In this document: positions 6,017-9,022 of the stretch, piece by piece
Position numbering within the stretch: position 1 is the first letter of the stretch
Layout: the number at the start of each line of letters is the position of its first letter
Assembly (NCBI RefSeq): GCF_000429945.1
Contig: NZ_AUCV01000008.1
Span: forward strand, 62,001-126,000
DNA from: Desulfogranum japonicum DSM 18378
Lineage (GTDB): Bacteria; Desulfobacterota; Desulfobulbia; Desulfobulbales; Desulfobulbaceae
Direction of reading: 5' to 3'
Length of the DNA stretch: 64,000 nucleotides
Program-made: the position numbers and the translations under genes
The notes under the pieces: model-generated
What the model saw: the letters and a program-made list of their open reading frames with translations, nothing else
Told to the model about the DNA's origin: nothing
Databases searched by the model: none

Positions 6017-7819
6017 CTACTGTACAGAAACTGTGAAAGGTCCAGCGGTTGAAGAGGAATAGGTTGTCGCTTCAATAGTGTATGTCCCTGCTGAGAGTGT
6101 ACGGGTGATTTGTGAGTTATAACCTGTTGTTCCGCCATCATCATCTGATTCAATAACAGAGCCGGTCTTTCCTTCTCCGTTGAGCAGATAGAGGTAAGTA
6201 TCTATTGATGAGGTAAGGTCAATTTGTACACTAGTAGAAGAAGAGACGGAAAATGTGAAATATTTTGCATAGCTACCGCTCCTGTGCGTTGAGAAACATG
6301 TGGCATTCCAAGAGTCGCTTTCTGAATCACCGACAGCTATTGTGCTCAGGCAGGAATTTCCTGTTGAAGGTGTGTCTGCGTTTTTTAACAGAAGTGAGGT
6401 GATGTGGGAAAAAGATACCTGACTGGTGCCGCCAATGGTTGGGTGGCGGACCCATGAGGTCCCTTCACCAACTCTGGAGGTGGTCCCCAGGGAGTCCCAA
6501 CGTATATTCATGTATCCTTTGACCCCCCAGTTTGGCCCCCAACTGTTACGAAGAATCCAGCTTTGGGTGGAGTCGTTCCAGCCTACCAATATGATCTGAT
6601 GATTTGTGTAACCATAACAAGCATTATAGTACGGGATATATACTCCTCCAGTATAACTGTACCATCCATTGTCAACACATACCCCAGCTGTGACAGGCCC
6701 ATATGTATAAATGGCATTTTTTATCTGTGTAACGGTAGGCATTGTCTGTTCAGACCCGGTGACGAATTGCCAGTTGTTCAGTTTGTAGGGGTGAGGATAG
6801 GAGACATTACAGGATTGCTTTGCTGCCGCATATGGCAAGATCGATTCCATGACAGCTCCAGCTGCATTTTGATTGCTTCCCAGTACATTGTAATGATATT
6901 TATTGGCCGTCCAACCTCCATCGCACCCCCAGTCGTCGCGGTTGCAGTTTATGAGAAATTGCTCAGAAAGATCAGTTAATGGTCCCCCGGCCTTACGTAC
7001 AGCTGATTCCATGATACCAACTGTACCAAAGCTCCAGCAGCTGCCGCATGAGCCTTGATCCCTGACTGGTGGGACAATTCCGTTGGTGCGCCAATCCCAG
7101 GAGGAAGGGAGTGATTTTTTTGTGTCAAGCTCGGAGTAGCTGTGTTGTTTTGTATCGACCAGGTCAGCAGAACTTCGCTGCTCTGGTGTTGAGGGCGTCG
7201 GGTCACTGATCTCCACTGTTTCCATACCGGCATCTACCTTGAGTGACAAGGTTGACTTGAATTGAGAGCCCTTTTCGAAAGGTCGGTGGTAGATGAGTTG
7301 GATCTCCTGTTCATCAATGCTGTTTGGCTGAAAAACAAACGTCTGGATAGAGGGCGATCCATATGCCTGGTATCGTGGTTTAAAGCGAACTGTGCTATTG
7401 TCCTTCTGGCGAAGTGTTCCGCTGTTCAAAACTTCCCATTTGTATCCTGTAGTGTTTCTTGCTTCTAATTGCAGAGTAAATTCTTTGGCTGATTGTGGCA
7501 GTGTTAAACGCAAATTTACAGGGCCTCCTAGAAAAGTTGCCATTTTCGAAGAGTTGTCAAAAAGAGCGGTGCGTAGCTGTGTGAGACTGTCACTACCTGA
7601 CATTGTGAGTCTGTTGTCTTGTATTGCTGCTAACACGTTATCTTGATTAATTTCATTAATAACCTGTTCTTTGTACTGTTGATTTCGTGTCTTGACACTA
7701 GATCGTATTTCCATATTGACCTCCCATTCCAAAGCATTGGCAGAGCTCAAGAATCCGAAAATACAGATAAAGAGGATGGGGATGAGGTATGCAAGGTGAT
7801 TGTTTGGGGCCGATTTCAC
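6017..7819 (-). CDS. secreted papain-family (C1) protease with chagasin-like inhibitor domain and PPC domain
   Basis: A 600-residue exported cysteine protease. GTG at 7819 follows AGGAG six bases away. Residues 1-29 are a signal peptide ending SSANA. Residues ~95-196 match the I42 chagasin fold by its three inhibitory loops: NTTGYKW (122-128), an AYGS turn (152-155) and HRPF (178-181). The C1A peptidase domain follows (~235-470) with oxyanion Q255, catalytic C261 in GSCGSCW, H407 in YTNHQI and N425 in RNSWG. The C-terminus (~485-600) is a beta-rich PPC domain, usual in secreted bacterial peptidases. Chagasins are free-standing inhibitors of papain-like enzymes, so here the domain probably replaces the normal helical propeptide and keeps the enzyme latent until it is removed; that is inference. 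Single gene, 283 bp after (upstream of) kptA's start, with a long leader on its 5' side. Confidence 0.93.
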   Translation of the reverse strand: MKSAPNNHLAYLIPILFICIFGFLSSANALEWEVNMEIRSSVKTRNQQYKEQVINEINQDNVLAAIQDNRLTMSGSDSLTQLRTALFDNSSKMATFLGGPVNLRLTLPQSAKEFTLQLEARNTTGYKWEVLNSGTLRQKDNSTVRFKPRYQAYGSPSIQTFVFQPNSIDEQEIQLIYHRPFEKGSQFKSTLSLKVDAGMETVEISDPTPSTPEQRSSADLVDTKQHSYSELDTKKSLPSSWDWRTNGIVPPVRDQGSCGSCWSFGTVGIMESAVRKAGGPLTDLSEQFLINCNRDDWGCDGGWTANKYHYNVLGSNQNAAGAVMESILPYAAAKQSCNVSYPHPYKLNNWQFVTGSEQTMPTVTQIKNAIYTYGPVTAGVCVDNGWYSYTGGVYIPYYNACYGYTNHQIILVGWNDSTQSWILRNSWGPNWGVKGYMNIRWDSLGTTSRVGEGTSWVRHPTIGGTSQVSFSHITSLLLKNADTPSTGNSCLSTIAVGDSESDSWNATCFSTHRSGSYAKYFTFSVSSSTSVQIDLTSSIDTYLYLLNGEGKTGSVIESDDDGGTTGYNSQITRTLSAGTYTIEATTYSSSTAGPFTVSVQ

Positions 7820-8451
7820 TTTTTTACTCCTAACGGGGTTATTCGACTACAGTCTCGACATCCCAAGATCCTATTCGGGCCTGGCAGCAGGAACCCTATG
7901 TAAAAAACTATAGGTTGAATCTGGTCTGTGCTGATTGAAGAATGTTTAATAACAAAGCAGGGGTGTGACTTTGATATAGTTCTCAACTTCTCACTTCAGG
8001 GCAAGATCTGTAATTGACGAGCATGCCCTGTAAGCGTTGGTATCAAAGGATAATTGCTCTTTACTGCGGTTTTCTTAGAGGAATACAACAGGAAGGTAAC
8101 AATTTATAACAGTCGTCTATACCATAAACAGTATCCAACTGCCAATATCTTATGCGAAGAAGTTTCATGCATTGGTAAACGGTCTTGTATTGGTAAATTG
8201 TATGATGATTTTATGCAGTTGTGTTGATATTTTGATTGCAGTTGTGTTTTTGTGTTATATGTAAGAATTGCTATTATTGCTCTTGGGTAAATAAACAAAT
8301 TGTTTTTAGGCGATCATTGTATTCTATTGTATTAATTCAGTGGGAATTGATTTTTTTTATTTGACTACTTATATCTGAAGTTTCCTGAAAATTGTGCACA
8401 AGGTTAAAAGCTGGGCAGTCAATATGGGAAGTGTTCCTAAATGAGAATGAC
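7820..8451. other. gene-free leader region of the papain-like protease
   Basis: No gene is seen. It lies between the structured element at 8452-8600 and the protease start, and is A/T-rich towards 8200-8400. The long distance suggests an extended 5' leader for the protease or a remote promoter. Short reading frames here have no ribosome binding sites or protein-like composition. Confidence 0.4.
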
Positions 8452-8600
8452 GTAACTGATAACAGGTACTCCACGAAGTCTCCCGCTGGTCGCTTATATC
8501 TTTGCACGACCGCGGTTTCCCGCATAGATAGTCACCGGAGTTTTCGCTTGCCTGCGAAAAATCGGGTTTGCCCAAATTTGAAGCACCTGTGACCAGTTAC
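8452..8600. ncRNA. candidate structured RNA or cis-regulatory element, family unknown
   Basis: The ends pair: GTAACTG (8452-8458) with CAGTTAC (8594-8600), a 3/3 internal loop, then ACAGGT (8462-8467) with ACCTGT (8585-8590). Inside, four more local helices can be drawn: GGTCG/CGACC (about 8488-8511), GCGG/CCGC around a four-base loop (8512-8523, GAAA on the minus strand), TTTTCGC/GCGAAAA around 8541-8560, and GGG/CCC around 8564-8573. ACTCC (8468-8472) can also pair with GGAGT (8537-8541) to enclose the middle helices. Such nested pairing over 149 nt is unlikely by chance. The minus-strand reading (with GNRA-like GAAA loop) would place it in the long leader of the papain-like protease; the plus-strand reading lies upstream of the glycosyltransferase. 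It does not match the c-di-GMP, cobalamin, TPP, glycine or SAM riboswitch cores known to me. Confidence 0.5.
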
Positions 8601-9022
8601 AACTCAGAACTAATTGAAATGTTAATGTTGTTAACCCCGTAATCAGTTACGCTAATGATTATTCTGGAGATCCTTTTCACGAGCAGGTAAGCTATAGCGT
8701 AGAAGGGACTAAAGTATGCCTTTGTCTGAAAAGCGTAAATTACGCATTTGGGGATTTGTGATAAAATGGGATTTTGGGGGGAAGATGAGAGGTTCAGTGC
8801 CAGGCAGGCATCGTATACATCGAACTGGAAATATTTTTTATATAGAGTTTGGACTTCTTTAGCCTGATGATGTGTACTGTCCCTTTGTGATATGCGGGCC
8901 TAAAAGTCTGTCGAAGGAAGCTCTTTTTTCCATATTTGTGGTATTATTAGAAAAATAATGTTTGCAATGTCAACTATATGGGTTTGCAGAGATTTTCTGA
9001 AAATACCTTAACCTGAGAAATA

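Follow-up and report, generated by a model that had tools for sequence, protein, structure and literature searches.

Domain Organization of the Fused Protease

A gene for a predicted secreted papain-like protease lies in the window, the 64,000-nt stretch of the Desulfogranum japonicum DSM 18378 genome that was analyzed here (contig NZ_AUCV01000008.1, positions 62,001 to 126,000; Table 1). An earlier model-made reading of the DNA letters (the sequence-only reading) had given the coordinates of the gene correctly, without its strand, which is minus. It had also described a chagasin domain ahead of a C1A protease domain and then a PPC domain, and all three scored over their Pfam cut-offs: Inhibitor_I42 (chagasin) at residues 112-195 (54 bits, cut-off 27.2, E 2.1e-14), Peptidase_C1 at residues 237-441 (159.8 bits, cut-off 20.7) and a C-terminal PPC at residues 519-584 (34.6 bits, cut-off 25.9). 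The full Q-C-H-N set reported for the C1A domain is likewise present, with Gln255, Cys261, His407 and Asn425 invariant in 41 of the 41 rows of alignment A3. This alignment consisted of the window protein and 40 of the 43 N-terminal fusions found in our scan of genomes (see below); L118 was left out, as were L120 and L125, two ORFs that contain multiple I42 stretches.

The small alpha/beta domain of 65 residues ahead of I42 is common to part of the fusions and had no Pfam match over a cut-off. The linker between I42 and C1 is variable, rich in Pro, Ala, Ser and Thr, and of low confidence in the structure model. No cathepsin propeptide (I29) was among the five Pfam families found for the protease at a max_evalue of 10, in a search whose filters drop most matches above 0.1. 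Upstream of the gene, no known RNA element was detected apart from two chance-level matches under the gathering score, and the RNA search of the 64-kb window found one tRNA, located elsewhere.

A dispersed intergenic repeat was also observed at window positions 8451-8640, with at least 39 other copies in the same genome at 79-89% identity (best 40 of 175 candidates). The element is MITE-like: its two ends (8451-8466 and 8636-8651) form a 16-nt inverted repeat and are 88% complementary. It had no Rfam match. One copy lies ~90 bp upstream of the paralogue described below.

Table 1. Positions in the window of the protease gene, its domains and its functional residues.
Feature	Position	Strand	Basis
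Secreted I42-C1A-PPC protease gene, 600 aa, GTG start	6017..7819	minus	ORF and Pfam
Shine-Dalgarno-like AGGAG, 7 nt ahead of GTG	7827..7831	minus	Read from sequence
Signal peptide (predicted), residues 1-29	7733..7819	minus	Judged by eye
N-terminal beta-alpha-beta-beta-alpha domain, residues 30-94	7538..7732	minus	pLDDT, DSSP, alignment
Inhibitor_I42 (chagasin) domain, residues 95-196	7232..7537	minus	Pfam, PDB search, AlphaFold2 model
Loop L2, residues 121-126 (RNTTGY)	7442..7459	minus	Sequence and alignment
Loop L4, residues 150-156 (YQAYGSP)	7352..7372	minus	Sequence and alignment
Loop L6, residues 177-182 (YHRPFE)	7274..7291	minus	Sequence and alignment
Linker, residues 197-236 (40 residues)	7112..7231	minus	Low-pLDDT blocks
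Peptidase_C1 (C1A) domain, residues 237-445	6485..7111	minus	Pfam and structure alignment
Gln255, oxyanion hole	7055..7057	minus	Sequence and alignment
Catalytic Cys261	7037..7039	minus	Sequence and alignment
Catalytic His407	6599..6601	minus	Sequence and alignment
Catalytic Asn425	6545..6547	minus	Sequence and alignment
PPC domain, residues 519-584; none found in paralogue	6068..6265	minus	Pfam

Loops of the I42 Domain

In addition to the Pfam match, the I42 stretch alone matched amoebiasin-2 (3m86; E 3.3e-5) and an "inhibitor of cysteine peptidase" (2wgn_B; E 4.2e-4) in a PDB search, and strands of the domain were predicted between residues 72 and 165 of the AlphaFold2 model described below. 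The motifs of the chagasin family are NPTTG in L2, GxGG in L4 and RPW/F in L6, as given in the available part of PMC2607524. All three loops named in the sequence-only reading were found, but L2 and L4 are less canonical than it had implied: L2 of the window protein (R-N-T-T-G-Y) keeps both Thr residues and the Gly of NPTTG but not the Asn and Pro, L4 (Y-G-S-P) departs from G-x-G-G, and L6 (R-P-F) matches RPW/F. On speculation, the altered L2 and L4 may loosen binding enough for release.

The 21 loop columns of A3 (121-128, 150-156 and 177-182) had a mean of 2.80 bits, compared with 1.53 for the rest of I42 (Mann-Whitney p 1.5e-6). In 39 of 41 rows, Arg179 of L6 occurred where position 254, which is papain residue 18 when counted from Gln255, was D or N. 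In chagasin, Arg91 contacts residue 18, according to the portion of PMC2607524 at hand.

Structure Models

An AlphaFold2 model of residues 30-460, made with A3 and with the first residue read as M, had a mean pLDDT of 91.1 and a pTM of 0.89, and a model of a Chloroflexota fusion that is 36% identical to the window protein had values of 92.6 and 0.90, respectively. With C1 occupying roughly half to three fifths of the modeled chains, a pTM of ~0.9 indicates that the domains are confidently placed relative to each other. Confidence in the window model was lowest at the linker (block pLDDT 54-75 over residues 210-239), with smaller dips elsewhere. The C1 domain of this model matched papain-family chains with Z 28.1-29.0 in the 50 rows listed (1ppn: Z 28.3, rmsd 1.8, 205 residues aligned). 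No chagasin chain was among the VIA-align matches listed for either model, which says nothing about the I42 fold because the C1 domain fills the lists. When a profile of ten fusions was compared with the PDB, the best 60 of 196 matches all began from profile position 120 on, and no solved structure spanning both domains was among them.

In procathepsins, the propeptide from about residue 70P onward runs into the active-site cleft. Nearly all other rows of the structural alignments begin near the mature N terminus, and those of procathepsin K begin far upstream. The alignment of the window model with procathepsin K (7pck_A) starts on 70P at model residue 91 (A120, before R121 of L2) and extends over 234 residues; the remaining 49 rows of the list have 203-217. 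In the second model, procathepsin K (7pck_D) starts on 70P at residue 35, before N36 of L2 (214 aligned), pro-Der p 1 (1xkg) starts on residue 55 at residue 34 (224 aligned), and cathepsin C (1jqp, 3pdf) starts on residue 1 at residue 71, within L4. Read indirectly, from the first aligned residues, these starts are what chagasin-type docking in cis predicts. Structure prediction had been proposed in the sequence-only reading as a check on whether the loops reach Cys261; the two models partly favor the auto-inhibition that it suggested, by their confident domain placement and by an L2 region that aligns with the procathepsin propeptide.

Distribution of I42-C1 Fusions

The same domain order, which the sequence-only reading had suggested looking for, was found in a paralogue and in a set of 46 distinct N-terminal I42-C1 fusions, mostly from Chloroflexota. 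The paralogue lies on another contig of the same genome, is 69% identical to the window protein over the alignment and has no PPC match. Its L2 and L6 stretches are unchanged, and L4 has one substitution, S to A. Identity between the two was 58% in the N-terminal domain, 73% in I42, 50% in the linker and 80% in C1, with synonymous sites near or past saturation.

A scan of genomes with the ten-sequence profile returned at least 79 loci, among them 40 with 43 N-terminal fusions; the scan was aimed at fusions, so these counts are not a prevalence. By title or taxonomy, Chloroflexota accounted for 28 of the 40 fusion loci, and the others came from Thermodesulfobacteriota or "Deltaproteobacteria," Pseudomonadota, Myxococcota, Acidobacteriota, Bacteroidota and one genome labelled Synechococcaceae. 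Levilinea saccharolytica strain KIBI-1 carries one of the fusions (L092). The Levilinea saccharolytica frame (L092:3623-8680) encodes 1686 aa with I42 and C1, and a downstream clostripain match in it was far under the cut-off.

Among 395 genomes of the phylum of D. japonicum, 60 had an I42 match, at 71 places in total, of which 10 were in frame with C1, seven were within ~1 kb of C1 and 54 were neither. Eight fusions from six genomes of the phylum other than that of D. japonicum were confirmed with Pfam, and no I42 match was found in the other genomes of the genus (n = 6, 68-100% complete). The 301 genomes of Levilinea's phylum that served as the Chloroflexota sample held 80 I42 places. Judged from positions and frame lengths, eight of the 11 C1 places with E <1e-20 in these genomes share an open frame with an upstream I42 (four of the eight in one genome), five further I42 places lie near C1, and 67 of the 80 are neither fused nor close. 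Most I42 domains are thus not tied to C1 in either sample, a point against the latency in cis proposed below. Several I42 domains per open frame were observed in G456:C229, G503:C17, G737:C39 and G584:C25, with four in 504 aa in G456. Viral contigs and a viral structure library contained C1 proteins, and an in-frame I42 was present in 0 of 55 deduplicated viral C1 rows.

A Pro-Region in Close Non-Fused Relatives

Alignment of 36 non-fused C1 proteins (L131, L117 and 34 others, from Zixiibacteriota, Planctomycetota, Thermoplasmatota and other groups) revealed a conserved region of ~45 residues directly before the mature domain (consensus, 31 of 36: EGWTFTVGxNPATxYPLxxLCGLVxP). Its W...LCG pattern presumably resembles that of the cathepsin B propeptide. 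The region had no Pfam match over the cut-off in the seven proteins tried, and no convincing relative was found for it in the PDB (best E 0.088, ribosomal L10).

A profile of this pro-region, trained on 32 non-fused sequences, matched 36 of 38 close non-fused relatives, 31 of the 36 by construction because the training set overlaps the test set, compared with 0 of the 46 N-terminal fusions (window protein included), none of which matched even at E 10. The five matches outside the training set were L128, L138, L156 and two C1 proteins of L139. In L128, L138 and L156, which have a separate I42 gene, the pro-region is kept (E 2e-13, 1e-14 and 9e-8, respectively), as it is in the Singulisphaera protein of L139 (L139:3515-5068), in which I42 follows C1 on the C-terminal side (E 5e-7). 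The close non-fused rows without a match were L126 (E 0.028) and L129 (E 2.1). Among more distant non-fused C1 proteins from the phylum, only five of 28 matched, so absence of the pro-region is informative among close relatives only. The number of independent pairs behind the contrast is one on starred branches and five on all branches.

The cross table was made without L091, in which 40 residues separate the contig start from C1, and without L151, which is not in the scored table though its aligned region looks similar; seven duplicate-locus fusions were entered as "no pro-region" from the scoring of the 46 distinct ones. L125, with its short C1 match, was excluded from the tree and from the pro-region test. 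Taken together, the pro-region is missing where I42 takes its place and is present where I42 lies elsewhere, which suggests that I42 has probably replaced an older pro-region in the N-terminal fusions.

Gene Neighbors and Descent

I42 frames were found directly upstream of C1 frames, overlapping them in L039, L072 and L231 and 9 nt apart in L232, with spacing taken from stop-to-stop frames. In L086, L087 and L090 a free I42 gene lies beside a fusion, and the built-in domain may therefore not be the whole control. I42 and C1 also adjoin on opposite strands, tail to tail, in G606:C139, G561:C19, G654:C89, G638:C58 and G351:C11.

Among the fusions, I42 and C1 distances were correlated (r 0.60; highest of 2000 permutations, 0.24), which indicates common descent of both parts rather than contact between them. 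In a C1 tree obtained by quick search, the neighboring pairs of L128, L138 and L156 lie next to the main group of fusions (support 87). The window protein and its paralogue group (95*) with an Anaerolineae protein and a protein from the phylum of D. japonicum. Most of the set around them is Chloroflexota, a placement suggestive of transfer between phyla. L039 and L072, which have long branches, were left out of a second tree.

As a tentative history, which we would not put at even odds, a free inhibitor gene may have fused to a neighboring protease gene and displaced its pro-region, so that a member of an independent family of tight-binding inhibitors would now serve as a zymogen domain that may act diffusibly once released. 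On the same tentative reading, intermediates would still exist as neighboring genes with the old pro-region and as a C-terminal fusion that has the pro-region.

Proposed Latency in Cis and Its Alternatives

The protein is, in our view, quite likely a secreted papain-like zymogen in which a captured chagasin domain acts as the pro-region and inhibits the protease in cis until the linker is cleaved; the inhibition, the cut and the release are what we infer. In the newly exported chain, I42 would dock against the catalytic domain of the same chain in the manner of free chagasins: L2 would enter the active-site cleft, flanked by L4 and L6, and the enzyme would stay latent. A cut near the start of C1 (LPSSWDWR), made by the same enzyme in trans or by another protease, would then sever the flexible linker of ~40 residues, after which I42 would dissociate or be degraded to leave the active protease. 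In this role I42 would have taken over from the older short pro-region. The auto-inhibition put forward in the sequence-only reading survives the placement of the domains in the models, the conservation of the loops, the absence of the pro-region and the occurrence of I42 and C1 as neighbors, although its loops proved less canonical than described.

The main rival is that I42 is a true inhibitor acting mainly in trans, which, once freed by linker cleavage, restrains this enzyme, its paralogue or other extracellular C1 proteases. Free I42 genes do adjoin some C1 genes or fusions, and Cip1, a free secreted bacterial chagasin-like inhibitor, has a Ki of 3.98 nM for papain according to the available part of PMC5014320. 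Action in trans alone needs neither a confident placement in cis nor a missing pro-region, and we consider it unlikely as the chief role, though action in trans by the released domain is compatible with inhibition in cis. Many pro-regions serve as folding helpers, and it is also conceivable, with a still lower probability, that I42 chiefly helps the catalytic domain to fold and that latency is secondary. Such a role would fit a domain that occupies the pro-region place in proteins that lack the pro-region of their relatives, but it does not require inhibitory loops to persist, and conservation is higher in the loops than elsewhere in I42.

We consider it very unlikely that I42 lacks an inhibitory role and is no more than a spent Ig-like spacer or adhesive module. 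The non-canonical L2 and L4 of the window protein and the BACON, PPC and FG-GAP modules that related fusions collect would be in keeping with a spacer; the loop conservation in excess of the rest of I42, the 73% identity of I42 to that of the paralogue when the linker has 50%, and the fixed position before C1 in the 43 scan fusions, with one reversed case (L139), argue against it. Chance adjacency or an assembly artefact, which might be feared because the titles of most genomes mark them as metagenome assemblies, is hardly credible given recurrence in 46 distinct fusions, including that of Levilinea saccharolytica KIBI-1 (L092), and in a D. japonicum paralogue from a different contig.

Comparison with Known Systems

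I42-C1 architectures are probably listed in domain databases already, which would mean that the order of the domains is not in itself new to them. The new argument for latency in cis is evolutionary, namely a pro-region in close non-fused relatives compared with none in the N-terminal fusions. In the literature searched, no I42-C1 fusion was found, including in the available parts of PMC2784779, PMC5014320, PMC3901451, PMC7863939, PMC2607524 and PMC10380794; the term "I42" is absent from the main text of the last of these, on the origin of the papain family, as far as that text was available. The role of bacterial chagasins had not been elucidated before a case of 2016, as stated in the portion of PMC5014320 consulted. 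With an inhibitor and its likely target in one chain, a partner of a bacterial chagasin can be named. If latency in cis is true, the fusion would clearly exemplify an inhibitor turned pro-region, and living genomes would seem to retain the steps in between. It would also provide a latent protease that lends itself to direct activation assays.

Like free chagasin/ICP (MEROPS I42), the protein has the Pfam match, T-T-G in L2, RPF in L6 and a papain-type partner; unlike it, I42 is joined upstream of C1A, and L2 and L4 are partly altered. A fused chagasin domain also occurs in the stefin-chagasin gene fusion of Bacteroides fragilis (PMC2784779, seen in part), in which the partner is an inhibitor, whereas here it is a C1 protease. 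Procathepsins with I29, such as procathepsin K, likewise have an N-terminal region and a linker before the mature enzyme, and both models begin to align on the procathepsin K propeptide just before L2; in contrast, the putative pro-region here comes from an independent inhibitor family and has no I29 match. The exclusion domain of cathepsin C, which was among the alignment matches of the second model, is likewise an extra domain at the catalytic domain, but it shapes specificity and remains on the mature enzyme. Cathepsin F is also a C1A protease with a domain from a family of cysteine-protease inhibitors, but its N-terminal cystatin-like domain is followed by a normal propeptide, whereas here I42 occupies the propeptide place.
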